Positions 7,347 through 54,738 of a DNA stretch of 64,000 nt are shown piece by piece. How positions within the stretch are numbered: position 1 is the stretch's first letter; the number at the start of each line of letters is the position of its first letter. Below the pieces are notes generated by a model. The model was not told the origin of the DNA and did no database searches. It saw only the letters and a list, made by a program, of their open reading frames with translations. The translations under genes and the position numbers were made by a program. Source of the DNA: Ganoderma boninense (lineage: Eukaryota; Basidiomycota; Agaricomycetes; Polyporales; Polyporaceae); the NCBI GenBank assembly GCA_002900995.3, contig CM035310.1, forward strand, positions 3,620,096-3,684,095. The letters run 5' to 3'.

Positions 7347-7373
7347 CGCGTTGGGGTCGCACTTGGGTAGCAT

Positions 7374-10173: not shown

Positions 10174-12516
10174 ATGTGGCTGCTCAGCACCGACCGTGCC
10201 GAATTACGGTACTTCTCCCGGAACTTCGACGCAGACGGCGGCTACGCCATCCTCTCACACACCTGGGAGCGAGACGAGCAGACGTTCCAGGAAGTGGAGG
10301 CGATCGGCGAGCGGTGCCGGCGCGACGGCACGAACCCGCGGGACTTCGTGCACGCCAAGATCCGCAACTGCTGCCTCCTCGCCGAGAAGGAGGGCTACCG
10401 CTGGGTGTGGATCGACTCGTGCTGCATCGACAAGACGAGCAGCAGCGAGCTCTCCGAGGCCATCAACTCCATGTACCAGTGGTACACCGAGGCCGAGGTG
10501 TGCTACGCGTACCTCGCCGACGTCCCGGGCGACTGCGTCCTGGACGCGCCGGACTCCGCGTTCCGCAAGAGCCGGTGGCACACGCGCGGGTGGACGCTAC
10601 AGGAGCTCATCGCGCCCGACTTCGTCATCTTCCTCTCGGGGGACTGGCGCGAGCTCGGGAACAAGGCCGCGCTCGCGAAGCTGCTGCAGGAGGTCACGCG
10701 CGTCGACTCGCGCGTGCTCACGCGGGAGCTGAAGCCCGCGCACTGGTCGATCGCGGTGCGCATGTCCTGGGCGTCCAGCCGCAAGACGACGCGGGTCGAG
10801 GACGAGGCGTACTGCATGATGGGCCTGTTCGGGGTCAGCATGCCGACCAACTACGGCGAAGGCAGGCGGGCGTTCATCCGGCTCCAGTACGAGATCATGC
10901 AGCACGACTCGGACATGAGCCTCTTCGCGTTCGGCTACCGCGTCACACAGGACGACACCACTCTCACCTTCCATGCGGAGGACCAGGTCAACCACCCCTG
11001 GCAGTACCTCATGGCGGACTCGCCGCGCGAGCTCGACTACGGCTTCGGGTACATCCCGGACCTCGGAACAAACGCGAAGCAGCAGTATCCTCCTCCCCTC
11101 GTTAGTTCACGACGTGTTGTGCCTTTTCCGACTCCTTTGAGCTAACTAGCTTCGACAGGATTCAAAGGCGACGGGCCCCTTCGACGGTGTCGAGCTCCCA
11201 AGCGCCACTGTAACAAGCTACGGGATCCAGTTTCGGCTCCCCGTCCACGAGGCGGACGGTATCACGGTTGCGGTTACATTGTGTCAGGGCAGCGGTCACC
11301 ACTACGGTATTTTCCTAACGCGGGATAACAAGGGAAAAGACCCGAAGCGGCCGCGCTACTTCACCGGATGTGTCTACCAGCGCCCCTCGACGACAGGCTC
11401 TGCGACGTACGTCGCTCGCCTAGCGGACCTGGGGGAAGACCTGTACAACCTTACCTTCAATGGGAAGCCGATCAAAGCCTCTTGGCGCACAATCTACGTC
11501 GTGCCCACCGCCTCCGACTTGGACTCGAGCAGCGCTACCGCGCCGAACCTCATCCTCAACTGTGGCCCTGCCTCCCGCTTCCGCGTCCCCCGCTGGCTCA
11601 TCGCGCGGTTCACCACGCTCCAGTTCGAGGTGGACCAGGTCAGGAACACCGACACGCTCCAGGTCGTGCGGGTCCTCCACCGCTCCAAAGCACGCATCTT
11701 CGTCTCTCTCGGCTCCTGCACAGGCCAAAACTCCGGCGACGGCGACTCCGCGTCCGAGATCCCCGACTCCAACGCCGAGGCGCCGAACGGCGACGTCGCC
11801 AAGCCGCCGCAGCTCTGGGCGAAGGTGGACGTCGTGTCGCTGATCGACATGGACAGCTTCACGCACGACTGCGCGACGGACCACCTCGCGGGCGCGTCGT
11901 GGGCGGCCGGCTCGAAGACGTTTGGGGACGCGGAGCGGAAGGTGCGGCTGTCGTTCGTGCCGTCGACGCGCATGTCCGCGCCCGTGCTCGTCGTGCACGC
12001 GGAGCTCTTCGGGAGCACGTTCGAGGAGATGCTGCGCGACTCGAACATCGCGATCCCGACGTTTGACGACCTCAAGAGGGGCCGCCTCCCGCCCGTCGCC
12101 ATCCCCCTCTCCGCGCCGCACGTCGACCGCACCGAGTTCACGCCATCCCAGCGCGCCTCTCCCCTGGCGCTGGCGCAGGCCCCCCTCGAGCAGCAGCAGC
12201 AGCAGCAGGCGGAGGAGACGGTGGAGGACTCCGGTGAGACTGCCATTGCCCACGGCGCCCTGCGAGGTTACGACGCTGACGGCGCGGGTGCTGCGGCCTC
12301 CGGCTCCAAGGACGAGACCGTCGAGAGGAGCGAAAAGACAGGCACGATAAGCCGGTGGACGCGGAAAATGAAGGCGATGTCTTTGAGGGCGGACCGCAGC
12401 CCGGAACCTCCGACGCGGACGCAGTCGGTGAGTCTGCCAGTGCCAACTCTTCGTGCTCCTTATCGAGGGGGAACTAACTAACACCCACAACTGCTTCTTC
12501 CTTTCAGAAATCTTAG
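10174..12516 (+). CDS. HET-domain (heterokaryon incompatibility) protein
   Basis: Exons 10174-11100, 11159-12427 and 12508-12516 join in phase (GTTAGT/CAG and GTGAGT/CAG) to give about 734 residues. The protein opens MWLLSTDRAEL, the usual start of this basidiomycete family. The HET domain follows: YAILSHTW, WVWIDSCCID, SELSEAINSMYQWY, RGWTLQELIAP, then RMSWASSRKTTRVEDEAYCMMGLF and a GEGRRAFIRLQ segment. HET domains trigger cell death on non-self recognition in some fungi; most basidiomycete copies are uncharacterised. The C-terminal half (about residues 310-734) is poorly conserved, with a CAG-encoded glutamine run near 12192-12210. The last exon encodes only Lys-Ser before TAG. Confidence 0.88.
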
Positions 12517-16514: not shown

Positions 16515-17981
16515 ATGGTATCCGCCACCTCACATCAACCAACGCCCGGACGAGTATCTCGCTCGTCTCACCAGGGCACCGCGCGGCCAGAAGACGCGCC
16601 GCGCACTGCGTTCGAAGAAGAACGTCCCACACTAGAACACACTCCGATAAGGGACCCGGGCAACAATCTGTTCCTATTCCCGGCACTGGCAACCTCGACG
16701 CCGTACGGCGGCCGAGGCGAGGAAACTATACGTACAGCAACTAATATATCTAATTCACCTCAACTTCCGGGAGCTATGCCTCATACAGAGGCTGGCCCAT
16801 CGTCCGAGCAATTCAAGAACGTCACCACTCGGAAATCGTCAGGCAAGCGAGTGTCAGCAGACACCGGGNNNNNNNNNNNNNNNNNNNNNNNNNNNNNNNN
16901 NNNNNNNNNNNNNNNNNNNNNNNNNNNNNNNNNNNNNNNNNNNNNNNNNNNNNNNNNNNNNNNNNNNNGTCGAAGACTCAACATCACTGGCCCCGAGAAT
17001 GAAAGCGGCCGAGTCGATCTACTTAGTCAAGTGTTGAAAGAGAAAGCCGGCATATGGCTATATAACCACGTAGCCTCGCCAAATCGTCTTCGAGCTGTAT
17101 GGACGTTTGAAGAAGTCATCATAGCGTTATACCAACGCTTCGTGGTGACCGACTCCTTCCGTCAAGCGGAAGTCAACTTCAACAAAATCAAATGGGATAA
17201 TCAGACAGGATCTTTGGGGCTCATGGAAGAGCTAAATCATTGGGCAGGACAAATGATTCAACATCCTGATGAGAAGACCTTGAGGGATAAGTTCATATCA
17301 TGCATACCCGAACGACTGGAAACCGAGTTAATCAAGCAGCACGGACTTGACGTCGACTTCACGCTGTATGAAGAATGGTGCAACACGGCCATACGCATCC
17401 AGAAAGTGGAAGAAGATATGCGTATGAGACGCAAAATAACTAATCAATTGCACACGTCTAAGCAGCTACAAGTCGCGGCGGCATCAAACACGGTTCAAAG
17501 TCGGGCAGTAACGGCGAGGTCGCCAGCAGGCAAAAGCTCATCGTTTCGGCCAATACCCAAGGACAGTAATACACAGCCTGCAGCAGTGTATGTCAAGAAG
17601 ACGTCTTTCATCAGGAAGGACCAAAATCGACCGTCCGGGCCTTCAAGGCCACGAACAACTGCGCCAGCGCGACCATCATTGAAGATGGCGTCTGGCACGG
17701 ACATATCAAGGATCAATTGCTACAATTGCTGGGAGAAAGGACACATGAAGAAGGACTGCAAAAATCCTACAAGACCACCCCCAGCAGGAGTCAAGTTGTA
17801 CACCATGGAAATAAATGATCCTGATGAGCAAGAAGAAATTGAAGTGGATATAGAACCTCCAGACTCTGAAGATGAATCACTCAATGTATTTGAGGTACAA
17901 TCAGACAATGAATATGAACGGCCATCATTAGATGAGCCACCCGTTGGAAGCGGAATTGCGTACGATACATGTAAGTATTGA
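16515..17981 (+). CDS. gag: Retrotransposon gag polyprotein
   Basis: ATG at 16515, about 488 codons including an assembly gap of 100 N (residues about 119-151 unknown). The N-terminal 110 residues are Ser/Thr/Pro-rich. After the gap comes a Ty3-type capsid region: LLSQVLKEKAGIWLYNHV, FEEVIIALYQRFVV, then FISCIPERLETELIKQ. A single CCHC zinc knuckle lies near residue 403 (CYNCWEKGHMKKDC) and would bind the element's RNA. The C-terminus is acidic. The stop at 17979-17981 lies inside the start of the protease frame, with an overlap of about 50 bp, so pol expression would need a +1 shift or a separate start. Confidence 0.9.
   Translation: MVSATSHQPTPGRVSRSSHQGTARPEDAPRTAFEEERPTLEHTPIRDPGNNLFLFPALATSTPYGGRGEETIRTATNISNSPQLPGAMPHTEAGPSSEQFKNVTTRKSSGKRVSADTGXXXXXXXXXXXXXXXXXXXXXXXXXXXXXXXXXXRRLNITGPENESGRVDLLSQVLKEKAGIWLYNHVASPNRLRAVWTFEEVIIALYQRFVVTDSFRQAEVNFNKIKWDNQTGSLGLMEELNHWAGQMIQHPDEKTLRDKFISCIPERLETELIKQHGLDVDFTLYEEWCNTAIRIQKVEEDMRMRRKITNQLHTSKQLQVAAASNTVQSRAVTARSPAGKSSSFRPIPKDSNTQPAAVYVKKTSFIRKDQNRPSGPSRPRTTAPARPSLKMASGTDISRINCYNCWEKGHMKKDCKNPTRPPPAGVKLYTMEINDPDEQEEIEVDIEPPDSEDESLNVFEVQSDNEYERPSLDEPPVGSGIAYDTCKY
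16869..16968. other. Assembly gap (100 N)
   Basis: Exactly 100 undetermined bases, the conventional size for a gap of unknown length, inside gag. Apparent frame continuity across it has no meaning until it is sequenced. Confidence 0.99.
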
Positions 17982-18639
17982 CGAAGACGAGAAGAATGAA
18001 GAGTGGCTCGCGTTTGAACGAGAACATGCAGCAGAGTTCGAACAGATGAAGATGCTTCAATCTTTCCAATTGCAGACTGATGCGCCCAAGACTAGCCGCA
18101 ATTACTGGCTGTATGATCCAAGAGTCACAAGATTAACTGAAGACAAAGATCAGCCAGTCAGGGACATCAAAGCAATGCAACCTATCACCATTGAAGTGAA
18201 ACTCAATGGTGTTCCTTGCTATGTGCTGATAGACACGGGCTGCAACACAAATTCATTTGGGCCAATTACCGCACAAATAGTCAAGGCAGATCGTATTGAT
18301 CTGAAGGAACAAGTACAGCTACAATTAGGCATGAAAAGAAGCAGAACCAAGATCAACCACGGCACGAGGGTGAATGTGGAAGTGGGACCGGTCAAGGAAT
18401 TGGTGTATTTCGACATAGTGGACATCGACCGCTACGACGCGATCCTCGGAATGCCTTTCCTTACCAAGCACAAGGCCCATCTGGACCTAGGAAGACGGAC
18501 TTTCTCCATAGACGGAGTAAACATACCGGTTTACACGGCCATGGAGGAAGCAGAAGTTCGCAAAGACCGTGACCAGCGCCGTAGAACTACAGTGGCCAAG
18601 TACACGCTGGAAATTCAGAACACAACGGTACAAGAGTAG
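17932..18639 (+). CDS. Retrotransposon aspartic protease segment of pol
   Basis: This frame overlaps the end of gag in the +1 frame. It carries the retropepsin active site LIDTGCNTNSFG at about residue 100, followed by DRYDAILGMPFL, the second signature of Ty3-type proteases. It would dimerise and cleave Gag and Pol. The ATG at 17932 opens the frame. The TAG at 18637-18639 separates it from reverse transcriptase in the same frame. That stop could be a readthrough or loss-of-function change, and I cannot decide from one copy. Confidence 0.88.
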   Translation: MSHPLEAELRTIHVSIDEDEKNEEWLAFEREHAAEFEQMKMLQSFQLQTDAPKTSRNYWLYDPRVTRLTEDKDQPVRDIKAMQPITIEVKLNGVPCYVLIDTGCNTNSFGPITAQIVKADRIDLKEQVQLQLGMKRSRTKINHGTRVNVEVGPVKELVYFDIVDIDRYDAILGMPFLTKHKAHLDLGRRTFSIDGVNIPVYTAMEEAEVRKDRDQRRRTTVAKYTLEIQNTTVQE

Positions 18640-20394
18640 GATACCGTGGCGGGAAGCATCGCAGTAGAGCCTCCCCATTCCCGCTACGTGAAGAATAAAG
18701 TGTCGTCCGAGGGGGAGGAGGACAGTCAGAAGACAGTTTTTGCGGAAAGAAAGCAGGCCGAGGTATCATCAAAGATATCTCAGCCCTTCTTGAAAAGCGA
18801 ACGACACCAAGGAAGGAAGAGTGACATACAGTCACCAATCACAGCAGAACGGTTCATACCAACGATTCACTCATCAAATCCAAAACATGAACAGTTCATA
18901 TTCAACAGAGCTCAAGAATTACAGGAGATATTCCTGCAAGCAATGACTGAGTTAATTGATGAAGAAGAAATCCGCAAGTCTCACAGAGAGCCAGCGGAGC
19001 AAGGCAGTGAAGAAGAGAAGTTGCAAGAACTCCGGGATAAATGGTTCCAAGCTTACGAGGACATGCTACGTCCCCCGCCCCCGGAACTCCCGCCTTGGCG
19101 CGAGGTGAACCACAGAATTCCGCTCATGGATGAGCAGAAGCAATATCATTACCGAACACCAAGATGCCCAGAAAGTGTCAGGGAAGAACTGTCTGAGAAA
19201 ATCAGCAAGTATGTAGCAGCTAAGTGGTGGGAGCCAGCGACTGTACAACAAGCGGCACCATTACTCTGTGTAGCCAAGAAAAATGGCAAACTACGTACTG
19301 TAGTTGATGCCAGACAACACAATGACAACACGATCAAAGATGTAACTCCATTGCCAGACCAAGACCAGATCCGTATGGACGTAGCAAGAGCTAAATACCG
19401 GTCAAAAATTGACTTGTCGGACGCGTACGAGCAAGTTCGTATCGTTGCTCAAGATATATGGAAGACGGCATTTGCAACTCCCTACGGAACGTTCATCAGC
19501 AATGTCATGCAACAAGGCGATTGCAATGCACCAGCAACCTTCCAGCGACTCATGACCACTATCTTTAGAGACTACATTGGACGGTTTGTTCATGTATATC
19601 TGGATGACATATTTGTCTTCTCAGACTCTATTGAAGAACATGAGAAGCATCTCAAATTAGTCCTGGACAAGCTACGTGAAGTAAAGCTTTATCTGAGTAA
19701 AAGCAAGCTAGACCTGTATTCCAAGCGCATGGACTGTCTGGGTCATATCATTGATGATAATGGCCTACATGCTGATGCAGACAAGATGGCAAGAATAAGG
19801 GAATGGAGAGCTCCCCGCTCTTACCACGAAGTCCAACGATTCGTGGGACTCGTCAATTATTTGGCGCAATTCATGCCAGATGTATCAGCATTCACATCTC
19901 CGCTAACTGACATGGAGCACAATGACAGACCTTTCATCTGGCGTCCACTTCACCAAGAATGCCTCAATGCAATCAAGGTCATGGCCTGTAAGGCACCAAT
20001 ATTGAGGCCAATAGATCCCAAGAAAGAGGAAACTATATGGCTCATCTGTGATGCTTCAATTTATGGCCTAGGGGCACTGTATGGACAGGGCAAGGACTGG
20101 CAGACATGTCGTCCAGCTGGATTCTTGTCCAAGAAGTTCACCAGTGCCCAGCGGGCCTATCACACTTATGAACAAGAAGCACTAGCAATATTGGAAGGAC
20201 TGTTGAAATGGGAAGACAAGTTATTAGGGCGCAAATTTGTCATTGTAACAGACCACAAGGCTTTGGAATTCTTCAAGCAAACTACTGCTCCAAATAACCG
20301 CCAGATACGATGGTTGGAATACATGGCCAGGTTTGACTACACGTTGCGACACGTCCCTGGCAAGGACAACAAAGTAGCTGACTGTCTGTCATGA
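18640..20394 (+). CDS. pol: Retrotransposon reverse transcriptase and RNase H segment of pol
   Basis: The same frame as the protease continues after its TAG. Reverse transcriptase motifs appear in order: LLCVAKKNGKLRTVVDAR, SKIDLSDAYEQVRI, GDCNAPATFQRLM, FVHVYLDDIFVFS (YLDD active site near 19600), and LGHIIDDNGL. RNase H follows, with WLICDASIYGLGALYGQ, TYEQEALAIL, and FVIVTDHKALEFF. The segment ends at a TGA at 20392-20394, right after KVADCLS. Related fungal elements, as I recall them, have Arg at this position before a YYEN motif, and YYEN follows the stop here. A CGA-to-TGA change is therefore the simplest reading. No initiator is needed if translated as a fusion. Confidence 0.92.
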   Translation, partial: DTVAGSIAVEPPHSRYVKNKVSSEGEEDSQKTVFAERKQAEVSSKISQPFLKSERHQGRKSDIQSPITAERFIPTIHSSNPKHEQFIFNRAQELQEIFLQAMTELIDEEEIRKSHREPAEQGSEEEKLQELRDKWFQAYEDMLRPPPPELPPWREVNHRIPLMDEQKQYHYRTPRCPESVREELSEKISKYVAAKWWEPATVQQAAPLLCVAKKNGKLRTVVDARQHNDNTIKDVTPLPDQDQIRMDVARAKYRSKIDLSDAYEQVRIVAQDIWKTAFATPYGTFISNVMQQGDCNAPATFQRLMTTIFRDYIGRFVHVYLDDIFVFSDSIEEHEKHLKLVLDKLREVKLYLSKSKLDLYSKRMDCLGHIIDDNGLHADADKMARIREWRAPRSYHEVQRFVGLVNYLAQFMPDVSAFTSPLTDMEHNDRPFIWRPLHQECLNAIKVMACKAPILRPIDPKKEETIWLICDASIYGLGALYGQGKDWQTCRPAGFLSKKFTSAQRAYHTYEQEALAILEGLLKWEDKLLGRKFVIVTDHKALEFFKQTTAPNNRQIRWLEYMARFDYTLRHVPGKDNKVADCLS

Positions 20395-22272
20395 TACTAC
20401 GAGAATGACAGCGTGGATGATTTCCATCCACAGCAAGACTATGTTAACGCCGACGTCCGACTAGACCCCGACTGGGAAGACCTCAAGATCACCCGCATAA
20501 TGGAACTTAGTGCCGGTCGCATCACTCGATCCAATCCACAAGGGCTAGACCCTAAAGACAGGGATGCACAGCAAGAATTCAAAATGCGGGTAGAGCCTCG
20601 TACAACCGAAGCGGAAGAGATGGCTCAAGCAGCAGAGAAGATTAACCAAGTTGGATCTAACCCCTCAGGAGCACCTGCAGTGCCACCTGAGGGGGAGGAA
20701 GCTCAGGTAACTGTATGGGAAGCACTAACCACAGGCCCATCCTTGAAGACAACTATTAGACAAGATGAATCTTACATGAATTTCATCAAGAAGAACTACA
20801 TCAAGGATAAAGTCTTTAGCAAGATACTGGCCAATCCCAGCCACTACAAGAGTTTCCAAGTTCGCGACGGGTTCATTTACACTGTTAACCGCAACAATGA
20901 AGAAGTCCTGTGCATTCCAAGAATCACCTATGACAGAAAAACCACCACGCAGATCATGATAGATCATGCACATACCACACTGGGGCATTTCAGAGCCCAA
21001 AAGACTTCGGAATACCTCAGAAAGTGGGTATGGTGGCCAAGAATGGGGATAGAAGTGGACAAATTCTGCATATCTTGTGCGAAGTGTCAGGTATCCAAAC
21101 CACGCAACCAGCTCAAGGCAGGTCTCCTTCATTCGCTACCATTGGCAGATGGGCCATGGGTATCAGTCGCAATGGACTTCGTAGGCCCGTTTCCTCGCAC
21201 GGATGGACGCGATTACTTGTGGGTAATCGTGTGCAGGTGTACATCAATGGTACATCTCATTCCTATCCGTACGACCAACACGGCCGCGGACTTAGCAGCA
21301 ATATATTTCAAGGAAATATTCAGACTGCATGGGCTACCAGAATCAATAGTCTCAGACAGAGACCCCAAGTTTACATCAGCATTTTGGCGCGAACTTCACC
21401 GATTACTAGGCACCAAGCTCCTGATGTCAACCGCGTTCCACCCTCAAACGGACGGAATGTCTGAGCGAACAATTCGATCAATCAATCAAATTCTGCGGGC
21501 AATGGTTGAACCAGAGCAACTACACTGGCTAGAGAAAATACCTCTCGTAGAATTCGCACTGAATTCATCAGCAAGCACATCAACAGGGTTCGCACCATTT
21601 CAACTCAACTATGGGTACATACCTCGTACCATAGCAGGCCTTCGTACAGACACAGAATTCGAAGGAGTCAAGGAATTCGCTCAGCGGGCACGACAGTACT
21701 TAGAGTCAGCGCATGACGCGTTGATTGAAGCCCGAGTCAAGCAGACGTATTACGCCAATCAATTACGCAGGGAGGAACCCTTCTTTGAAGAAGGGGACAT
21801 GGTGTATTTATCTACCAAGAATTTATCAGTACCCAAGGGGCGAGCACGCAAGTTGGTGCCCAAGTTCATTGGGCCGTACAAAATTCTTGAAGCACACCGA
21901 GAAACCTCAACGTATACGTTGGAGTTACCCCCAGGGTTGAGCGTGCACCCAACATTTCATATTGAAGTGTTGAGAGCACACGAACCTAACGACGACAATA
22001 TATTCCCGCATCGTGATGGCCGAGCCTTTTACGATGTTGGCAATGATGAAGAACAAGAATGGATGATCGACGAGATCGTCGATCACCGCTGGGAAGGAAG
22101 CAAAGTACAATTTTTAATCAAATGGACCCATGGCCTTAAGACATGGGAACCGTACACCAAGTGTAGCGATCTCGCGGCACTTGACGAGTACTTCAGCCTG
22201 CAAGGCATCAAGCACTGGCGACAACTCCGCAAGACGTCATCAAGAGAGACGGCCGAGGCAACAGTCACGTGA
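20395..22272 (+). CDS. Retrotransposon integrase with chromodomain (end of pol)
   Basis: This continues the pol frame after the TGA. An N-terminal HHCC zinc module (HTTLGHFRAQKT, then CISCAKC) precedes the catalytic core. The three acidic residues lie in VAMDFVGPFP, ESIVSDRDPKF, and HPQTDGMSERTIRSIN. A GPF/Y-type segment (LVPKFIGPYKIL) follows, and the last 60 residues form a chromodomain (MIDEIVDHR, VQFLIKWTHG, TWEPYTKC). Chromodomains of this class steer insertion to marked heterochromatin, although this copy sits inside a host gene. The stop is TGA at 22270-22272. Confidence 0.93.
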   Translation, partial: YYENDSVDDFHPQQDYVNADVRLDPDWEDLKITRIMELSAGRITRSNPQGLDPKDRDAQQEFKMRVEPRTTEAEEMAQAAEKINQVGSNPSGAPAVPPEGEEAQVTVWEALTTGPSLKTTIRQDESYMNFIKKNYIKDKVFSKILANPSHYKSFQVRDGFIYTVNRNNEEVLCIPRITYDRKTTTQIMIDHAHTTLGHFRAQKTSEYLRKWVWWPRMGIEVDKFCISCAKCQVSKPRNQLKAGLLHSLPLADGPWVSVAMDFVGPFPRTDGRDYLWVIVCRCTSMVHLIPIRTTNTAADLAAIYFKEIFRLHGLPESIVSDRDPKFTSAFWRELHRLLGTKLLMSTAFHPQTDGMSERTIRSINQILRAMVEPEQLHWLEKIPLVEFALNSSASTSTGFAPFQLNYGYIPRTIAGLRTDTEFEGVKEFAQRARQYLESAHDALIEARVKQTYYANQLRREEPFFEEGDMVYLSTKNLSVPKGRARKLVPKFIGPYKILEAHRETSTYTLELPPGLSVHPTFHIEVLRAHEPNDDNIFPHRDGRAFYDVGNDEEQEWMIDEIVDHRWEGSKVQFLIKWTHGLKTWEPYTKCSDLAALDEYFSLQGIKHWRQLRKTSSRETAEATVT

Positions 22273-22327: not shown

Positions 22328-25174
22328 ATGTCGCGGCCGGCAACGCCTCGCGTCCTCCAGCTGCTCTCCACCATGGCTACCCCCAACCCCACTGCTCCTG
22401 CTGCCTCTCAGCCTGCGACCGACGCCCAGCAAACGATCGCGCCGATGTCCTACGCACCGCAACAGCAGCAAGCGCAACAGCAACAACCACCCCCATCCAC
22501 CTACCAACAACAGTACCCCGGCCAGTCATCCTACCAGATGGCTGCGCCTATCCCCAACTCGGCGCCGCCGAACCAGGCTCCTCCTGCGATGCCCTACCAG
22601 TCATCGCAGCAGGCAGCCCCACAATATCAACAATACCAGCAGTACCCCCAGTATCAACAGCAAGCTCCGATGGCCCCGATGAATCAATTGGGACCATACA
22701 GCCAGACGGCTCAACAACCCGGCCCCATACAAGTCCCACAGGCCCCAGTCAGCACCCAGCCGGGCTATCCGCCGCTCATGCCGAGCGGCGGACAATTCGT
22801 GGGTCCATGGCAATGCGTCGGGGAACAAATATTGGCCATGAAGCACGTGTCGGGATGCACAACATGCGACAGCTACTGCGATCATTATCGATCCAGTAGC
22901 TCGGAGCTCCAGTTCGTTGAAGAACACTCGAAGGGTCAAGCTGCGTATCAAAAGAAGTTAATAGACTTCATGAGAGGGACTGGCTGGACGGTGATGACGC
23001 CGGGAGAGGGAGGGAAGGTTAGTGAGAAGGAACTCAAACTCAAGTCGGAAATTGTTCGATATCGGAACGAACGCGACGCGGCGAGGAGTCAAGTTGCAGA
23101 GTTCGAGAAGAAGATTCAATTGCTCGAACGGAAGAACGACGAGTACAAGATCGCGCTAACAAGGGCGCAGGAAGACAAAGATCGATACAGGAACGAACGT
23201 AATGATGCTCAACAGCGGTTGGACGAAGAGCGACGAAGGTCTCGCGAAGACCGCGACCGAGGTCGACAACGAGAACGATCGAGGTCGCCCCGCCAACGTG
23301 GCGGCGAACCATACCCGCACCGTCGGAGAACGCCCACGTACGGGGGAACGGGATATTTAGCTGCGAGACCCGCGCGGCAGCCGCGCGAGGAGTACATAGC
23401 ATCAGGACATCGCGCCGCGTCAACACCAGCACAGACGTATGGGCATCATGTCGATGCCCCAAGTCTGCAAACATCAGCAAGCATGGGGCCACCGTCATCA
23501 TCGACGGCGGTGCGACCAGGAGCATCGAACGTCGTTGTTCGCCTTCCAGCCGCGCCACCCCCAACGCCAACTCCCTACCAAGAGTGGAAGGCACCGGTCG
23601 GGGAACCACCTCAAACCAAGACGATGTTCGTCGAGCAGGACGACCCGATGGACGGGGGCGGATCGCCGATCCAGCATTACCCCCCTGGGTTCGTCCACCC
23701 GATGAACATCGCGTACGATTCCGGCGAGGAATCGGACGACCTGCCACCGGATGGGACGGGAGCGGCAGCTCTTCGGGCCAAACAAGGTGAAAGAGCGGCG
23801 CGTCGCGCAGCGAAGAGGGAACGAGAGGAATGGCTGAGACAGCCCGTGGTTCCGGGGCCGTCGTGGTACGACCTGAACGCCCGTTCACAAGAACCAGACG
23901 GGAGGCCAACATGGGGCGAGGTTCCGAACGCAGAACCCGGTCCTTCTGTGCAGCGTGATCATGCAGATCATCGCGCAGGGACGGCCGTGGTCCCGAACAG
24001 GTCGTCATTGACCGAAGTTCGAGAATTCACGACGCGAGACGGCACCAAGCTCCAGCACTACATGCCGAACGAATGGCCGGGAACGGTGAAGCGACCTGAA
24101 CCGTCGAGCATGAACAAATGCGACCGGTGGTTCTACTTCATACCGCGAACGGACACGGACACGTACGGCTTCATGAAGGAAGCCCGGGATCAAGGCGAGG
24201 GTGCCCAGGAACGTATCAAGGATCTCCTCAATCAGTACGGCAAGGACATGGCGTTGCAAACCATTCATTCGTTGAAGATCCTCAATTCGTCATGGAGGAA
24301 ACCCGCGAGGCAAGAGCCACGTCCTGTTCCAGGCACGTCGTCGCGACCGTCTCAAGTCAAAATGAAGCAACCATCGCACCACGACCCCCCAGAAGAGTGG
24401 GCCAAGTACTGGGCCTACTACCCCAGCGCGATGCCGGAACAGCTTCGAGGGTTTCGACGGCAAGACGGTACCCTTGATCATGATGTCATAAGGGGACACG
24501 CTGTCATCAAGGCCATGGTACCCGCTTTTCGGAAGAGAGACAAGATCGAGAACAGCGGCCAACGTCTAACGATGTTGGACACGGTGGTTCAACTCTTCTC
24601 GATTCCAGGCTTGTTCCACGCCATCGTCGAGCAGGATCGATTGGAACGCGTGCAGCAACAAGACTTGCAGAAGATTCAAGGCGATTTTCAAGCATTGTCA
24701 GAACGCGACTTTGCGCGATGGGCGGCCCAGTGCGGAATCACCGACGACTCGGTTCGCCACGCCGAACAAGTGGCCCGAGTCTGGAGAAATCATTCCTTGG
24801 GTCGCATACCGAGCGACCCCAGCCCATGGCCGAACTGGCCTGCGACGATCTCCGACGTCGTAAATATGCCGGCTCCGGAAGACTATCGACCGGCAAGTCC
24901 TGGGCCGTCCCGCAAGCGCTCGCGATCGACGTCGCGTCACTCATCGCGCGACAATGACCGCCGTCCATCTAAGCCAGTGTCGCGTACAGCGTCTTGTCCG
25001 CCCACGCGGTCTCCCGCCCGTCAATGCTCGCCAACGTCACCGTCGACCATAAACCCTCGTGAGATACGCGATAAGGGCAAGAGCAAGCAATCGCCTATCG
25101 TCGATGAAGATGCCGTGTCGCTGGGAGACAATCGATCCCCTCGTTCACTATCCCCCACGCCAAGCGTTGGCTAG
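22328..25174 (+). CDS. Extra ORF of the retrotransposon, function unknown
   Basis: An uninterrupted 948-codon sense-strand ORF between pol and the 3' LTR, starting at an ATG 55 bp after the pol stop. By eye: a Gln/Pro/Tyr-rich low-complexity N-terminus (residues about 15-150), a Cys cluster SGCTTCDSYCDHY near 174, and a coiled coil of charged heptads (about 230-320). A Arg/Ser-rich stretch follows (about 320-350), then a disordered middle. A more ordered C-terminal region (about 590-855) contains CDRWFYFIPR, EEWAKYWAYYPSAMPEQ and LSERDFARWAAQCGI. The tail is Ser/Arg/Pro-rich. It is not an envelope protein: no signal peptide or membrane segment is visible. The Q-rich plus coiled-coil plus basic layout suggests a nucleic-acid- or Gag-interacting accessory protein (inference). 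It is intact, unlike pol. Confidence 0.8.
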   Translation: MSRPATPRVLQLLSTMATPNPTAPAASQPATDAQQTIAPMSYAPQQQQAQQQQPPPSTYQQQYPGQSSYQMAAPIPNSAPPNQAPPAMPYQSSQQAAPQYQQYQQYPQYQQQAPMAPMNQLGPYSQTAQQPGPIQVPQAPVSTQPGYPPLMPSGGQFVGPWQCVGEQILAMKHVSGCTTCDSYCDHYRSSSSELQFVEEHSKGQAAYQKKLIDFMRGTGWTVMTPGEGGKVSEKELKLKSEIVRYRNERDAARSQVAEFEKKIQLLERKNDEYKIALTRAQEDKDRYRNERNDAQQRLDEERRRSREDRDRGRQRERSRSPRQRGGEPYPHRRRTPTYGGTGYLAARPARQPREEYIASGHRAASTPAQTYGHHVDAPSLQTSASMGPPSSSTAVRPGASNVVVRLPAAPPPTPTPYQEWKAPVGEPPQTKTMFVEQDDPMDGGGSPIQHYPPGFVHPMNIAYDSGEESDDLPPDGTGAAALRAKQGERAARRAAKREREEWLRQPVVPGPSWYDLNARSQEPDGRPTWGEVPNAEPGPSVQRDHADHRAGTAVVPNRSSLTEVREFTTRDGTKLQHYMPNEWPGTVKRPEPSSMNKCDRWFYFIPRTDTDTYGFMKEARDQGEGAQERIKDLLNQYGKDMALQTIHSLKILNSSWRKPARQEPRPVPGTSSRPSQVKMKQPSHHDPPEEWAKYWAYYPSAMPEQLRGFRRQDGTLDHDVIRGHAVIKAMVPAFRKRDKIENSGQRLTMLDTVVQLFSIPGLFHAIVEQDRLERVQQQDLQKIQGDFQALSERDFARWAAQCGITDDSVRHAEQVARVWRNHSLGRIPSDPSPWPNWPATISDVVNMPAPEDYRPASPGPSRKRSRSTSRHSSRDNDRRPSKPVSRTASCPPTRSPARQCSPTSPSTINPREIRDKGKSKQSPIVDEDAVSLGDNRSPRSLSPTPSVG

Positions 25175-41957: not shown

Positions 41958-44137
41958 ATGTCGCGAACCCCGCCCCCTGCAAAGCGCGTTCGACTCGCAG
42001 ATGAAGCGGCCGCCACAGCTGCGTCCTCGCCAGCACGGACTGGCTTCGAACCCCATGCCGATTTCTGGTTTGACGACGGAAACCTCATCCTCGTCGCGAA
42101 ACGAAACATCGCATTCCGCGTATACCGCGGTCTCCTCGCCGCTCAGTCCACTTTTTTCGCTGATAAGATCGCATCTGCATCCTCAGACCCCACCCGAATG
42201 TCCGACGGCTGCCCAGTTGTGCAGGTCACCGACACCCCAGAGGAGGTTGCCCATTTCCTGGCTGTCGTGCTGCCCAAATCAAAACAATTGTACGTATGGG
42301 AGACTCTGATCTCTTGCTAAACGTATCCAGGACTCAGGGTGCAGTTCAGGTTTTATCGACGCAAAGATGACGCGCCGTTCACCTTTGATCAAGTCGCCGC
42401 CGCCATCCGCCTCTCCCACAAGTACAACGTCCAAGACGTTTTAGCACAAGCCATGGGTCTGTTGCAAGAGCGACACTTCTCCCCAGACTACCTCTCCTGG
42501 CTCGAGCGCACAGAACACACCACCATTCTCACTCAGGGCCCAGTCGCTATCGGCGTCGTCAACCTCGCCAGGTTGACCGGTGTGGCCACTCTCCTGCCTC
42601 CCGCGATATACGAATGTGTCCGGCTTGGGAGCGCCATTCTGGACGGCTGGGCGAGGGATGACGGCGTGGTCGAATACCTCTCGCCGCAGGACCTGAAGCT
42701 CTGTTTGGACGTGCGCGATGTGCTTGGCAGCGAAAGCATGGCCATTTTCCTGCGGTTGTTCGACGTAGGGCCGTGTCCAAAGTGCAGCGAGCCCGAGTTC
42801 TTCTGTGCTGAGCACCTGCGCGATGCCAGGCAGGAAACGTTCTCGGAGTACTTTCCGTTCCAGGCCCCCCTGGATCCGTGGAATCCTTCGATGGTGAACT
42901 TTCTGCGGTCGTATAACTTCTGCGACGAATGTCGCACTGCGCTTTTCTTACGAGAGCGTCAGGAGCGCCACGATCTTTGGGGCAGGCTACCTGGTCTGTT
43001 GGTGGAAATGTCTTCTCTCACACCTCCAAACCATTCCTCGTCTGCAGCTGATGCATCAACACCCCATGGACGGAGTCTTCCTTCCGGTCCCACCACGTCC
43101 TCGACCCAACCCTTGTGCGGACCCCTCGCTGGGATGAATCGCCATCCCGAGTTCTGGCTCGACGACGGCAATCTCATCCTCGTCGCCGGCCGAGAAACCG
43201 CATTCCGCATCTACACCGGCCTCTTGGCCTCCCAATCCGAAGTCTTCGCGAACATGTTCGCCGTCGCGAGCTTGAGCGCCGACGAGGCCTACGAGGGCTG
43301 CCCCGTCGTCCCCGTGTACGACACCCCTGTGGAGTTCGCGCACCTCCTGCGTGTCCTCATCCCGAAGGAGACTCGCACGTGAGTGAAGTCTGGACAACCT
43401 AATCCAACGCCCACTGTTTCTGTTCCTCTCACATCTGCGCTTCGCTCCACAGCTTCCACCGCACCTCGCAAGACGCCCCGCGCACCTTCGACCAAGCGGC
43501 GGCGATCGTCCGCCTCGCACACAAATACGGGCTCCTAGACGTCCGCGACCAAGCGCTCGCCCTCATCGAGGAACATGCCTTCCCCCGCACCGCGCCACGG
43601 CCCCCAGAGACAGCCCACCTCCAGCTCACCGTGCACGGCATCAACGCGATCGGCGCGGTCGCCCTCGCGCGCCTCGTCGACCGGCCCGCGCTGCTCCTCT
43701 CCGCGTTGTACCGCTGTGCGACGCTCGGGAGCGCGGTGCTGGACGGGTGGACGCACGACGACGGGCACGTCGAGCACCTCGCGCCCGAAGACCTGAGGCG
43801 CTGCATGGACGCGCATGGCGCGCTACAGGGCGCGCGCGCGATGCTCTTCCTCGAGTGCGCATACGACCACGGCGCGCACCCCGACTGCGCGACCGAGGCG
43901 CAGTGCAGCGACGCGCTGCGCGCGGTCGAAGACGCCATGCTCCGCGAGGAGTTCCGCGCGCCGCTAGCGGCACTCGACGCGTGGGAGGTGCCGCTCGCGG
44001 AGAGGGCGGACGCGTGCGGGCTGTGCGCGCGCTGTCGGGAGATGCTGGGCGTGCGCGACGCGGAGGCGCGCGCGTACGCGTGGGCGGACTTGCCGAAGGC
44101 GTTCGGGATCGAGGTCGCGGGCTGGGGCGCGAGGTAA
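41958..44137 (+). CDS. Double BTB/POZ protein (BTB-3), tandem fusion
   Basis: Exons 41958-42289, 42338-43378 and 43453-44137 join in phase to give about 685 residues. Two full BTB units follow one another in a single frame. Unit 1: ADFWFDDGNLILVAKR, CPVVQVTDTPEEVAHFL, IRLSHKYNVQDVLAQAMG, CDECRTALFLRERQERHDLW. Unit 2: PEFWLDDGNLILVAGR, CPVVPVYDTPVEFAHLL, VRLAHKYGLLDVRDQAL, CGLCARCREMLGVRDAEARA. A Ser/Pro-rich linker (about residues 320-370) joins them, with no stop and no usable splice site that would end unit 1. Each unit keeps the ancestral intron in the same place, showing fusion by tandem duplication and loss of the intervening stop. An in-frame Met in the linker could still start a separate second protein. 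Confidence 0.75.
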
Positions 44138-47339: not shown

Positions 47340-48123
47340 TATGGCGTGAGGGTTGCTGCTCCAATGGTGCGCTCCGAGGGAGAAGAAATAAATTACGGCA
47401 AGCAAGAGCGAAGGAAGACGATGGAGGGAAAGGCTTGAGCCTCTCCAGGACCAAGGTGAAAGAGTATTAGAAAGTAGAAAGGTCGGAAGGCGGAAGGCGA
47501 AAGGCGAACGTCTATACGCGACTGAGTCGCGATGCCAACGTATATTGGAGCAACAAGCGCCCATCGCAAATTGCAACAGCCCTCCTTACGAGCGGTGGTG
47601 GCGGTGAGCGACTGATGGCCCTCGCAGAAAACACCGCACTTGCCCCATTCGCAAAAGAGTTTGGAGTCGTCCTGCGCTGCGATCCATGAAGCGGGGAGAG
47701 GACGGCCGGTACCGGTGTAATGATGGGCTTGGTCGCAAGTTCAGGCAAACTCGCCGAGGCACGATGACGTCCAGCACTACTTACGATTAACGTCATGGAG
47801 AGCTCGTGGCACAAAAAATTCAGCACGCTGAAACGGCACCCAACGCGGCTATGCGACTTACCACTTGCCGGAATGCCAAACACCCGGATCAGCCGCGGGG
47901 TCCACTCGCTGACCCTCGGATTCGCGGGCGAGCTTCAGTCAACGACGGCATCATGATCTCGCGCCCCTGATCTTCCAGGACCAGGCGGTTCCCATAGGGC
48001 CTGCATTGGTTAAGAAATTGCAGTATCTTCAACGCACCGCCGAGTCTGCGACGAGGCTACATGGTCAGCGCATTCCATGATCCGACTCCAAGCACAGCAT
48101 TCACGCGGCGGAGGTGGACCGAC
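47340..48123. other. No gene seen; upstream of gene G and left flank of the large transposon
   Basis: Holds the presumed promoter of gene G. At its right end, CCGAC (48119-48123) is one copy of the 5-bp duplication made by the transposon. No coding motif. Confidence 0.45.
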
Positions 48124-48221
48124 TACGGTGTCCGAGCAGGATCAGGTTGAAAAATCAAAAACCGTCGGTCGACGAGTGGAAATCTCGCGGGCGCTGACCT
48201 TGTGACAGGCAGATGGTCGGG
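48124..48221 (+). repeat. Left terminal inverted repeat, 98 bp
   Basis: Identical by eye to the reverse complement of 54101-54198. The match stops abruptly at 48221, inside which the two subterminal regions differ. Confidence 0.92.
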
Positions 48222-48762
48222 CCGCCAGCCTGGTTCGAGGCTCGAGCGCAGGTGGCTGCGGAGCTTGCCGCCCGTCCCCTTCGCCCCGTCTGGCCTGGCG
48301 TTGGCGCCCAAGAGGTCGACCTTTCGCGACTGCTCTACAGGGCCCTAGTCAAAGGTGGGGATCATGATTTTTGGTAGGACAGGCAGTAAATAGGCATATT
48401 AACCAACATGTATACTCAGAACCCTTCCCCAAACTTCCGTGGGCAAGTTACAGGCGGTGAAAGCAACGACTCCGTCAGCGCTTTTGGGCTCGAGATCGGG
48501 TATTAAGCGCGCTCCGGAATGACGGACTCTCGCCAATGTTGACGGTCAGGCGTAGAATTAGCAAGAGATATTGACCTCCATAGCCACGATTTACTACAAG
48601 TTTGAGTGATTCAGGGTACAATTACCTTCTGTGGAGTGAAGTTCAGCGTGCTGCGGCACGGTTACACCTGCCGCGATGTAGACGCCCAAATCAGATAATC
48701 TCGCCATGAGACTCTAGCCCTTCCCTGCCTCCTGCCTCCTGCTTTCGAGTTCATCTCTCAAC

Positions 48763-50402
48763 ATGACAGGCTCTGGGATACGAATTCCGAATCCTAAAGG
48801 CAAAAATCAGCACAAGGACTGTCGTAAGTCCATCATTTGGCCCACAATCCTCATTCTTGGCACGAAAAAAGTAATTACTGACTTGCATATGTCTTAGCTC
48901 CCAAAGACGATCCTCGTGTAGAGTTGGCATTGAGAGACTATCAGAGGCGTAATATCTCGGATAAGGAGAAGATTCGCCGGCTTCTACTTGCTGAGCACAA
49001 CATTACGATGTCGTAAGATCTGTCCAATGTCGCGTGTATGCGGTACTGCACGTTGTATAAGCTGATGTTTTCTGGCACAGGACTGCTACCATTGTTCGTC
49101 AGCGCCGGGAACTAGGTATCAAAGCCAGCGGTGCAACAACGAGGGAAATGACAACCACAGAGAAGCGCCAGCTCGTCCTCGACCAGTTAGCCAAGCATCC
49201 GAGTCGTGGAATGGGACCACGTCGGATCCAGGAGGCGATCGCTGCAGACACAGGAGTGCAGCTCACACGGTAAGTGTGTCTTCCGCTGAACCATGCCGCA
49301 TTTATCTTTATTATATTGTGTGGTGGCAATATGCAGGGACTACATTACAGAGGAGATGCGCCTTCTCGACCCAGACGGTTTTGACCAGCGCCGCCCAACG
49401 AGCAAGAAGATCCACCGTGTTCCAATTGTCGTTCTCGGGCCTGACTATGAGGTCAGCCTAGATGGACACGACAAGCTCAGTGCAATCGGATTCCCCATCT
49501 ATGGTGCACGAGACGTCTGGAGCGGAAAGTGGCATGGAGCCTGGGTGGTTCCCAACAATCGTTACAAGGTGTCGATCGCATATGTCTTCCTCCGTCTTGT
49601 TAAGAAATTAAAGGGTACGTCTCAAGTTGTATGGCTGACAATCTTAGTCTATACACTTACGCATGCAACTAGGTATGCCGTTGCAGGTTACCACTGACCG
49701 CGGGAGCGAGACCGGTGGAATCTATGCATTCGCAAATGCACTACGGTATGTTTAACTTTCTCCCACCTATTAGATTGAGAGGCTCACAACCACACTTCAG
49801 GGAGGAGTTCGCTGCAGAGTATCCTGTTCACGAACTCCCTCCCCATGTGTTTCTCCCGAGTATTCACAACATCACCATTGAGCGTGGCTGGCTCCGGCTT
49901 CGACTCGAGTGGGGCGAAGACGTCAAGATTTTTTGGGAGGCTGGAAAGGACATATACGATGAGATGGACCCAGATCAATAGTAAGTTAGGCCTCATGACT
50001 TATAGTTACCCCTGTGGTCTCACAATATTGGATGGCAGCGAGTTAGTGCAGTGGCTTTGGCCCAAGCTCATTCAACAAGAGCTTGACAAGCTATGCGATG
50101 GTCTCAACAACCACAAGCCACGTCGTATCCGGGGAAAGCTTCTCCCCTCTGGTGAGGCCCCCAATATTCTTTACGCATTGCCTCACAGCTATGGAGGCGA
50201 GCCGGGTGGTCTTTTGCCTGTTGATCTTGACTTGATTGATGAGCTGATGGAGGATCTTGGTGGAGAGGACCTGATTCGATTTGTGTCACGCGAGTACGAG
50301 GCTCGTGCAGAGCAAGTTTTTGCATCCTTGGAGATTGGAGAGCTGAGCTTTCAAAATGTCTGGGATGTTTTTTCACGCATGCTTCCACTGATGAAACTCT
50401 AG
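48763..50402 (+). CDS. Integrase-core (DDE) transposase
   Basis: Seven exons, 48763-48823, 48898-49012, 49081-49269, 49337-49614, 49673-49745, 49801-49980 and 50039-50402, join in phase to give about 419 residues. The first 140 residues look like helix-turn-helix DNA binding (ISDKEKIRRLLLAEHNI, GMGPRRIQEAIAADTGVQL). The catalytic core has an RNase H-like fold pattern. The first Asp is in EVSLDGHDKL, followed by GFPIYGARDVWSGKW; the second Asp is in VTTDRGSETG; the Glu is in NITIERGWLRL. The GHDKL...IYGARD signature matches the integrase-core family common in basidiomycetes and some animals (I believe Pfam's rva_4 group). A C-terminal helical region follows. It would bind the 98-bp ends and cut and paste the element. 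Confidence 0.85.
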
Positions 50403-50468
50403 TATTGTAACATAGCTTGTTTGTACTCTCGAGTATTTCTATGGCATCAGCTCTAACTAGTTGTGAAC

Positions 50469-53400
50469 CTATTCAGTCGTATCAGGAACGTAAATGCTTG
50501 TGAAGCGCGTAGTACCATCTCCAGCAGTCGCCCTTCCCTTACCCTTGTTCTTTCCGCTCGTATCAACCTGGGCTAAATAATCAATTGCCATGACATTCCG
50601 AGCCTTTTGACTGAGGCTGCCAACTATGTCATCGTCATCGTCGTCGTTCCAGGTGAGTCCGAGTGCTTTGCAAACAGAGTTGCACTTGTGCTTCTTCTCG
50701 AAGTCCTTGATTTCAGGCTCGCCCTTGTCCCAGAATCCTGTTTTTGTTGTACCCCATGCACTTTGGACAGAATATTTAGATAAAGTAAGTGCGGTACTCA
50801 TGAATAATACAACGGTTAACTTACGTGTGTGCCTGTGGGTCAAACAAAATTACTTCTGAGTTGTCGTCCTTGACAAATCCTATAGCGGAGGCACATGTTA
50901 TAAGTTTATGCTATACTAGAGTGTCGCTGAAAATATAATAGAGTGCAATTACCTTGGAGGTCCACTAGAACACAAGTTCGGATTGAATCCATAACGACGT
51001 GATGCGCGAAGGCATCGATCGCCAAGCCTGCAATTGTGCGGTTTTCTCCAACCTGAAGTGCACCCGAAAACTTGATCTCCGTATATCCTGCTGACTTTCT
51101 GACGAGAGGCGAAGCAAGGAAGGTACGAAAGAGGACTGCACGCTTATCGATGTCTTCCGTAGCAGTAGTCGAGTACGTCTCTGCAGTGATCTCTCCAATA
51201 AATGCCCCTTCTGCATTGAAGCGGATCTCTGTAGATACCCAGCATTAGCGACTCAACAACATATAGTATGTGACCTCACATACTCGGAAGCGATACACCT
51301 GCCAGGTCCGCACGACGCTCAAATGAAGAAGCAAAGAACTGCGCCAAAGCTAACAGTTTGAGCTCATCCATAAGATATCCGGAGTTTTCCTGCTCGGTGG
51401 CGTGGTAGCTTCCCAGCGGGGCCATCTGGGAGAGCGCGACAGGCTTCTGGAGATATAAGCCCTAAAATCATGGTAAAATTGAATTATGATTGTAGCACCA
51501 AAGTACCAAGATTACGTACCTCAAATGTATACTTGGATGAACCAGCACCGAGCCAGCCACCCTTAGGCTCGTCAGACGACTTGAACTGCTGCCAATCTTT
51601 CGAAATCATAATGGTGTCCTCGACGCTGAGTGTTGCAAGCGATGGTATGCCTGCATCGTCAACCGTGCAAATCGTCTTCTTGAACTTGAACAGAATATAC
51701 TCCAGACCAGGGCGACGAAGTGCGTCTGCGAGCGGGGCAGGTCGAAAAGCACTGCGGTAACGGGTTTCCGAGGAAGTCGTAGTCGATGGTCCGGCAACAG
51801 TGGACGAAGGCTCTGAATAGCTGACATTAGCACGTAATTTCTACTGTACACCTGGACGTCCAGTTTCGAACAAGTTTGAGTGGTACTTACCTATTATTGA
51901 TTCTCCACGTTTTCGTTTGCCCCGAGGCCCTAAACTGCTAGAGAAGGGGGTGGCAGACGCTGTAGTTACTGCACTCCTGACATTGCCCTTCGCAGATGTT
52001 GCGACCGTCGCGACCGGCACACTGCTCTGACTCGAACGCGACCGCTGGGGAATGTAACGGGGTGGTGGCATGTCGTCCTCATCCTAAGTATATTCAAAAC
52101 ATTTACTATCAGCAATAAACGGACGGACCGGAGGGAACACACCTCGTCGTTCCTCCGCGAGGGATAGATATGGATGTTCAACAGGATAGACTTCTCCTTG
52201 TTGGCTGCAACCACCTTGCCGTCCTTCCCAGTCTTCGGCGGTGGCACATGAATGGTATGGTCAGCCACGAGCTGCTGGTAATAGTCGCCCAAGGTCTTCA
52301 TATGAAGGTTGTCGCCAAGGTTGATCGTATATGCTACCTTCGCCTTTCCGGGGGGCTTCGGACCGGCGATCAAAAACATGACATTACTCCTAGTATTGCA
52401 ATCATGTCAGACAGAAACACCAATGATCCCTCGTCAATGACCATCGATCGGTAATTGGTTGAGCACGTCAACTTACCGTTGGAAGTCATCATCTGTAATC
52501 GGAATGTTCATCTTCGCACCAGCTGGCAGCTGGTCCCACACGCTCTTCAGCGTGGCGAGGGCAGCGTCTAGAACAGCGGCAACGGCATCTTCTTTGCCAT
52601 CGAAGATCATCCGGGTTACCCCTTGCGTGCTGATCTAAATATGATACATTGCAAGTGAGCAGTTGATGACGAGCGAAGAGTAGAAAGTCCACGTGCCGCT
52701 GCTGGGACCATCGTCTTTCCCTTCGGTCCAGGCACGACATAGAAACCAAGAATGTCGACACATATGGGGTCTCCTCCTCGTATCTTTTTGAGTGCGACGA
52801 CCTTGTTCTTGACATTCTGAACCTTGTCAGTCGTCGTACCTGGCTTCGCAGGTTTGTGAAGGCGATGGTCGGTAGCCACCTTTTCGAACGCGCTGACACG
52901 AGTCTTGACTCGCTCGAATTGATCAGACGTGGAAACGCCTGTAGCTTTGTTAAGTACACTGGTCTCCAGTCTCCAAATCACTATACGCACTGGCATCACC
53001 TTGGGCGGTCTGTTTACGCTGGCTAGCTTTACTCGGACCTCCCGTGGCAGTGCCGCCCACTGACTGGGAAGAGGAGCACAGTGGAGCGCAGGCACCGCAG
53101 AAGCCGCTGGTGGGTAGGAAAAGAAATACGCAGCCACAGTTCTTGCACTGAGGAGTCTTCTGAAAAGCGGCGGTGCATTAATAGGATACAGGCACTCTAA
53201 CAACAACAGTGATGCATACTCACCAAGATCTCGCTGCAGTCTGTATCAGATGCTGCCTTCGCCAGCTTCAAGCACCGCCCGCACTTAGAAGCATCGAGCC
53301 CTGGAAATGCACCACCACATCCAGTGCATTGCCGCATGCCCTGAAAATAATGTATACCGACGTTAGAACTAGCGGGCAGTGGTCAGTATACACCATTAAT

Positions 53401-53526
53401 TTCTCTCACCAGCCAAGACTCTGATGTTTGCGATACATGTTCAGTATCTAGCCGTAGCTGGCAGATTGCGCAATACTGTCGATCGAGAAGCTCGAATCGC
53501 TGTCCACAGCCCTCGCACTGACGCAT
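50469..53526 (-). CDS. Alpha-type (MHCK/EF2K-like) protein kinase with zinc-ribbon-like repeats
   Basis: About twelve exons and roughly 780 residues. Exons 1-3 (53526-53410, 53340-53224, 53159-52991) each encode one Cys-pair unit: CEGCG...CAIC, CTGCG...CGRC, CKNCG...CGAC. The middle (52938-51900) is partly disordered. It includes MFLIAGPKPPGKAKVAYTIN and a basic GPRGKRKRGES that could be a nuclear signal. The C-terminal alpha-kinase domain spans about 51815-50469: GWLGAGSSKYTFEGLYLQ (nucleotide loop), AIDAFAHHVV, DLQGFVKDD, ILFDPQAHT. The family's zinc-site motif KKHKCNSVCKALGL follows. Catalytic Asp and Gln of DLQG and the HxCx3C ligands are present, so it should be active. Intron 4 seems to use a GC donor at 52696. 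Substrate unknown. Confidence 0.85.
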
Positions 53527-54100
53527 CGTGAATGGGAAGACGGGGCTATGATTGTTCTCGATATCTGGTACATAAATACTCGGAGTCTACGCTATCGGCA
53601 GGAGCACATACCACTCCACTCTCAATCTGCTTCCCAAATCGCAGAAAGACACTTACCTTGTGGTCTGAAAACGACTCGACCAATCCGCCCCAGACGATAC
53701 GAGGACTGTGCATAAAGCGCCGTTGCATGTTGAGTCGAAGCGACATGAGAGCGATCGACTCCACTCACCACACCGAATTTGGTGATCCGTACCTGAACAG
53801 AGCGCACCGTCCAAGAGATAAGTGCTCCTCCTCCGGCCTTGGTTGGCAAAGCTGAACTTGTGGTTGCTGAGGTGGCCGAGACGGACGAGTCCAACGGTGC
53901 ACCATCCGGACATGTGACAAAGGAGAGGGAGAGGGAGTGCAGGTATGGGGAGTAGCAGTGCGCCGTCAGCGAGGCGGGGGTGGGAGGAGATAGTAAGCGT
54001 ACCTGCCGCAGCAGGCTGCGCGGAGATGTGTCTATTTCATACTCCGACAGGCAGGATACAGTCTCCGCTGAGTGCCTGAGCTCCCCGGAGTCCCGGGCCA

Positions 54101-54198
54101 CCCGACCATCTGCCTGTCACAAGGTCAGCGCCCGCGAGATTTCCACTCGTCGACCGACGGTTTTTGATTTTTCAACCTGATCCTGCTCGGACACCGTA
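54101..54198 (-). repeat. Right terminal inverted repeat, 98 bp
   Basis: Perfect complement of 48124-48221; followed by CCGAC, the second copy of the target duplication. Confidence 0.92.
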
Positions 54199-54738
54199 CC
54201 GACCATAAAATTGATCTCGATTAGAGATAGCGCATCATACAGGTTGCTTCCGTCCTTCGACCCCCACAACGTTAACGCAAATTTTCAAGGACGGAGGGGG
54301 CGTCATGATTGGTAGTTGAATACCCTACGCCTGCGGGTCGGATATGCATACTGCACAGCGTCTCTTGCCGATGCTGAGGCCAATAGCGGATCCGATGGGC
54401 CTAAGACGTGAATTCTCCGATGATTCGCCCGATGATACGGAGCCTCGGGAGCGGGGGCCGGACCAGGTTGTAAGTATACCATGTGCAAGCGGAGCCTGAG
54501 TCGCACCTTGCGTATCCTGCGAGTCGTGCCGCGTCATACCGTATACGAAACTTCGGTGGCGCCGTAGCCCAGCGCAAGTACACTATGAAGCAGAATATTC
54601 TTGGTGTAGATGTCAGTACGCCGGTCAAAAGAGCCCAAGACCAACTTCACGCAGATCCGGGCTCCAGAGAGCCACGCTTCTCGTCTCCTCAACATTGAAG
54701 CAGTCCGCCGCTGGGTTCTCCGGGGCGGACGCGTTCCA

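Follow-up and report, generated by a model that had tools for sequence, protein, structure and literature searches.

An IS3EU-like DNA transposon with an alpha-kinase-family gene in Ganoderma boninense

The window analysed here is a stretch of 64,000 nucleotides from Ganoderma boninense (assembly GCA_002900995.3, contig CM035310.1, positions 3,620,096 to 3,684,095, forward strand). At window positions 48124-54198 it contains an intact DNA transposon of 6,075 bp with two genes, both open, one encoding a transposase and the other a protein of the alpha-kinase family.

The element and its two genes

The inverted ends are identical over 98 of 98 bp (48124-48221 against the reverse complement of 54101-54198), with 2 mismatches beyond that, and both flanks carry the target site duplication (TSD) CCGAC, which is 5 bp long and not 6. 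The termini, TACGG..CCGTA, fit the IS3EU pattern TAYGG..CCRTA. The two genes converge, with 66 bp between their stop codons. The earlier note had described a complete transposon of exactly this composition, and in this it was correct. The features are as follows.

48119..48123, no strand: left TSD copy, CCGAC, 5 bp, read from the flanks
48124..48221, plus strand: left terminal inverted repeat (TIR), 98 bp, starting TACGG, from end-to-end comparison
48763..50402, plus strand: transposase gene, 7 exons, 419 amino acids; DDE integrase fold and N-terminal helical units, from the structure predicted for homologue P0008
50469..53526, minus strand: alpha-kinase-family gene, 12 exons, 775 amino acids, convergent to the transposase
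52991..53526, minus strand: kinase exons 1-3, one CxxC..CxxC zinc-ribbon motif per exon
52143..52938, minus strand: kinase exons 4-6, region aligned to a ubiquitin-like (beta-grasp) domain predicted in homologue P0001
51891..52083, minus strand: kinase exon 7, basic KRKR stretch, a possible nuclear signal
50469..51812, minus strand: kinase exons 8-12, alpha-kinase domain with DLQG, FDPQAHT and HxCx3C; VALSQM in place of the expected VAK strand
54101..54198, minus strand: right TIR, 98 bp, finishing CCGTA, from end-to-end comparison
54199..54203, no strand: right TSD copy, CCGAC, 5 bp, read from the flanks

Exon borders of both genes were picked by hand from splice sites and reading frame; every intron runs GT..AG, and the donor of kinase intron 4 is weak (GTGGAC). 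The resulting kinase model (53526-50469) and transposase model (exons 48763-48823, 48898-49012, 49081-49269, 49337-49614, 49673-49745, 49801-49980 and 50039-50402) are free of stops. A purpose-written spliced aligner, fed these same proteins, disagreed with the hand models in three places. It shifted kinase exons 3 and 10 at their 3' borders, the exon 10 shift bringing in one stop and losing DLQG, and it placed an intron in transposase exon 6, giving a model of 405 amino acids; all three differences were judged to be aligner errors.

A Pfam scan of the window transposase matched the rva_4 integrase core at E = 2.4e-4, which is under that family's curated cut-off; of 120 listed homologues of the transposase, 28 were scanned, and all 28 matched rva_4 at E <=0.01. 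DDE geometry is present in the predicted structure of P0008. By predicted structure, an RNase H-type D-D-E core is common to this transposase and to IstA (IS21), TnsB and the retroviral integrases; the likeness is one of fold alone, and the structure and gene content of those elements are unlike those of the window element.

The kinase matched the Pfam alpha-kinase family PF02816 at E = 1.1e-12, with 48.9 bits against a cut-off of 21.3. All of the C-lobe motifs are present, as the earlier note had read them: DLQG (DxQG), FDPQAHT (DPQxHT) and HxCx3C. Profile match, motifs and predicted fold are thus common to the window kinase and the alpha-kinase family of MHCK A, eEF2K and TRPM7 (ChaK). Compared with these, the window kinase has additional N-terminal parts, namely its zinc ribbons and predicted ubiquitin-like domain, and in its lineage the N-lobe lysine strand and the hinge glutamate are replaced. 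The combination of such a kinase with zinc-ribbon motifs and the predicted ubiquitin-like domain is new here; paper searches on alpha-kinases with transposons, fungi, ubiquitin-like or zinc-ribbon domains gave nothing nearer than PMC12730594.

Related elements, placement and selection

Copy and locus searches cover one assembly, in which the 6-kb window sequence is single-copy over its full length at the DNA level. Three further elements with like ends and both genes were found. A diverged element on C5 (L054) has inverted ends of ~226 bp that are 92% identical; its transposase is identical to that of the window at 276 of 418 aligned positions and to one from Ganoderma adspersum at 357 of 403, and the aligner gives its kinase 12 exons too, the FDPQAHT exon among them. 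The elements on C3 (L058) and C8 (L059), of ~5.55 and ~5.6 kb, again have transposase and kinase convergent, so that the kinase is opposite in orientation to the transposase in all four TIR-bounded two-gene elements. It is hardly conceivable that the locus is a chance neighbourhood of a transposon remnant and a host kinase between fortuitous inverted repeats; nothing was found in favour of this, and the perfect 98-bp repeats, the TSD and the three further elements of the same plan contradict it.

TAYGG ends are found on the C5, C3 and C8 elements and also on a 682-bp element (C5:4379920-4380601; L055 3920-4601), which has the ends of the window element and its own duplication. Transposase and kinase searches gave no match there, as expected of a miniature inverted-repeat transposable element (MITE). 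The earlier note held that its case would fail if other copies of the ends consistently lacked the kinase; this lone MITE-like element bears on that in part, having no match to either gene. The duplications, hand-read from the flanks, are 5 bp in three of three copies of the window kind (CCGAC in the window, CTGAG on C5, GTCTG at the 682-bp element) and 6 bp in two of two on C3 and C8 (GCGGAC and CTAGAG).

The earlier note knew of no named superfamily with this pairing of genes, which is contradicted by IS3EU. The available part of PMC12730594 describes IS3EU families with TAYGG..CCRTA ends and with transposase and alpha-kinase genes oppositely oriented, as stated for TET+ families, and the available part of PMC10045372 gives TA..TA ends and a TSD of "usually 6 bp". 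Of 35 papers with IS3EU in the library searched, PMC12730594 alone also mentions alpha-kinase, to which it gives two sentences. The window element has in common with IS3EU the ends, TIRs of >30 bp (here 98 bp), an integrase-like DDE transposase and the opposite alpha-kinase gene (PMC12730594, PMC10045372). In contrast to TET+ IS3EU, no third gene such as TET/JBP was modelled in it, and its kinase domain is missing the usual lysine and hinge glutamate. GingerRoot, treated alongside IS3EU, shares mostly TA..TA ends and an integrase-like transposase with the window element but has a 6-bp TSD in place of 5 bp (PMC10045372, same part). The word kinase is absent from the main text of PMC10045372, and alpha-kinase and IS3EU are both absent from that of PMC10799480. 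Since the TSD is 5 bp in the window, C5 and MITE-like elements, they are named here an IS3EU-like, 5-bp sublineage. This sublineage is new here, and it means that duplication length can vary inside one transposase group.

A transposase tree of 37 rows gave three groups: the window and C5 with 28 homologues from other Agaricomycetes; C3 and C8; and L056, L060, L061, L063 and L064. The program flags long branches and unsettled bootstrap for this tree, which leaves out most of the kinase loci other than the four TIR-bounded elements. We consider it unlikely that the 5-bp elements stand outside IS3EU as a superfamily of their own, though one related to it: the consistent difference in TSD length, the long branches between the transposase groups and the rva_4 match under cut-off would agree with a separate status, but end motif, the two genes and their orientation are all shared, and the inner TIR stretch is similar.

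The C3 and C8 elements allowed selection to be estimated from the ratio of nonsynonymous to synonymous substitution rates (dN/dS). For the transposase this is 0.345 (dS 0.121, 405 codons); for the kinase it is 0.181, taken over 562 codons in eleven exon segments picked by hand. In 9 of the 11 segments dN/dS is <=0.25, two of these being without amino-acid change, and one of those two having saturated silent sites; three C-terminal segments show dS of 1.2-1.9 and dN of 0.11-0.23. The kinase in this pair is under purifying selection, and it therefore looks like a kept part rather than passing cargo. The earlier note's view that the kinase is maintained as a second gene is thus upheld, since the C5, C3 and C8 elements carry both genes and selection is seen in the C3-C8 pair. 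Its suggestion of measuring dN/dS across copies succeeded for this pair (0.18); the comparison of window with C5 was discarded because silent sites are saturated.

Nucleotide difference between the C3 and C8 elements is mostly 1-10%, at most 16%, but 18-53% at about L058 4884-6270. This stretch covers the intergenic space and the 3' catalytic part of the kinase, while the ends and transposase are nearly equal. From their sequences the two elements look like mosaics, as if the divergent segment had been exchanged.

Linkage of kinase and transposase across the genome

The transposase search gave 52 matches, which were collapsed to 23 loci. Kinase loci number 19: 15 were found with PF02816, the window and C5 by protein, and C2:2903688 and C13:898795 with the C12 kinase piece. 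At least 4 of the 19 (the last four named) thus escaped the PF02816 search, and 19 is a lower bound; a profile search for further kinases was insensitive, as it yielded 2 proteins, of which 1 was new, and missed P0002-P0007. All 19 kinase loci lie <=30 kb from a transposase of the window element's kind and 16 of them <=12 kb (C2:2903688 and C13:898795 at 6.7 and 23.2 kb by subtraction, the other 17 distances computed). Conversely, 21 of the 23 transposase loci have a kinase <=30 kb away, C12:421103 and C20:60412 sharing that of a neighbour; none was found within this distance of C1:4164153 and C13:475236. Around 13 other rva_4 loci, hand-collapsed from 26 matches, no kinase was found nearer than 150 kb. 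The linkage is given without a probability, because the searches set minimum counts and loci that are duplicates of one another cannot be treated as independent.

No alpha-kinase lacking a nearby transposase of the window kind was found in this genome among the 19 loci of that lower bound, and the suggestion of a captured host gene is accordingly unsupported. The second observation that the earlier note had set against itself was the kinase at a conserved locus in relatives without the ends; this was tested in part, in that all 19 kinase loci found in this genome are linked to a transposase of the window kind. That the element carries the kinase as a passenger, or as a gene captured from its host, with no part for it in transposition is very unlikely. 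The apparent loss of catalytic residues in the window lineage would suit a passenger, and TET/JBP is known as element-borne cargo in fungi (PMC12730594, available part); against this stand the linkage at every kinase locus, the purifying selection in C3-C8, the occurrence of a zinc-ribbon motif at kinase-bearing loci of three transposase lineages, and the same pairing reported in rust fungi (PMC12730594, same part).

Alternatively, the kinase might shield the element from host silencing, through chromatin or DNA methylation, and leave the transposase alone, which is possible though doubtful. The basic nuclear-type stretch, the zinc ribbons and the predicted ubiquitin-like domain would be in keeping with a target in chromatin, and in TET+ IS3EU families the TET/JBP gene lies between transposase and kinase (PMC12730594, available part). 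One Tet_JBP match in the genome, C1:4968415, sits between the kinase at C1:4953420 and the transposase at C1:4981855, the TET+ IS3EU order with strands unlike those published. However, of 29 Tet_JBP matches this is the only one that lies between such a pair.

Possible roles of the kinase

The best explanation, shown in part by the ends, the duplication, the two open genes, the plan repeated in three elements and the purifying selection in C3-C8, is that an intact cut-and-paste DNA transposon with two genes, of the IS3EU kind and of a 5-bp sublineage, occupies the locus and that its kinase is an element-made nuclear helper acting in trans; we put the probability of this at about 0.72. The kinase itself is most likely a nuclear protein, encoded by the element, that assists or regulates transposition; the available part of PMC12730594 proposes no role for it in IS3EU. 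The transposase would bind the long inverted repeats through its N-terminal helical units, and its D-D-E site would excise the element and join it to a staggered target. The kinase-family protein, with zinc ribbons, ubiquitin-like domain, basic stretch and kinase domain, may then act in trans, with either the transposase complex or a nuclear protein of the host as its target, probably by phosphorylation in lineages with canonical residues, and perhaps more by binding or altered nucleotide use in that of the window.

What is strange here, and open to testing, is the kinase, particularly in the divergent form that it takes in the window lineage. The strand-3 lysine position, counterpart of K645 in MHCK A and K170 in eEF2K, we take to be ATP-anchoring. 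In the window, C5, P0001-P0003, P0005, P0006 and P0128 it is V or Y and the hinge reads FLATPL or similar, by an N-lobe alignment that is uncertain; the C3 and C8 kinases retain both lysine and hinge glutamate. A kinase of the 5-bp sublineage that appears to be without the ATP-anchoring lysine and hinge glutamate, with C-lobe motifs kept, is apparently new here. This apparent loss makes simple phosphorylation less certain in the window lineage. A more speculative and rather unlikely idea is that an obligatory second protein has turned nuclear pseudokinase and steers its partners by binding, not phosphorylation, the partners being the transposase complex or host proteins of chromatin or repair that are linked to ubiquitin/SUMO; if true, it would combine an alpha-kinase fold lacking ATP-anchoring residues with a ubiquitin-like domain and zinc ribbons in tandem. 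Since canonical and non-canonical kinases occur in intact-looking elements of one genome, the transposon's need for its kinase becomes testable.

Several points weigh against the helper transposon as set out above. The IS3EU placement was made from published descriptions of the superfamily, and the 5-bp TSD departs from the usual 6. The structure model of the kinase homologue is weak (predicted local distance difference test score 54, from 7 sequences, with the C-lobe mostly <50). The selection figures come from the C3-C8 pair alone, members of the 6-bp lineage, and two kinase segments are higher, at 0.43 (26 codons) and 0.51 (68 codons, at the kinase domain start). Furthermore, of the 15 kinase loci that do not belong to a TIR-bounded two-gene element, 14 have the kinase on the same strand as the transposase and downstream of it, 4.5-28 kb off, and a search for inverted ends across C1:2509801-2523200, the one such locus that was read through, gave none of note; the linkage figure therefore mixes bounded elements with other loci.

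Same-strand loci are spread over C1, C2, C4, C9, C10, C12, C13, C16, C17 and C20, and are possibly large elements or immobile pairs; at C12:932340, the remaining locus of the 15, the kinase is on the opposite strand and upstream of the transposase. L060 3113-9883 and L063 673-6609 have a transposase, a BTB-like open reading frame (ORF) and flanking stretches in common over ~6.8 kb. This could be a large duplicated or mobile unit, and large cargo elements were considered as a possible reading of the same-strand loci. Inverted pairs of transposase copies 12-18 kb apart were also seen, at C12:421846(+)/439749(-), 97.8% identical over 1 kb, and at C20:48245(-)/60412(+).

Elsewhere in the window, ORFs of gag-pol type at 16515-22272 resemble, by eye, a Ty3/gypsy-like retrotransposon, with a 948-amino-acid ORF behind it at 22328-25174. 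The ORFs at 6231-7394, 42339-43382 and 10174-11145 resemble BTB/POZ and HET-domain proteins, again named by eye.
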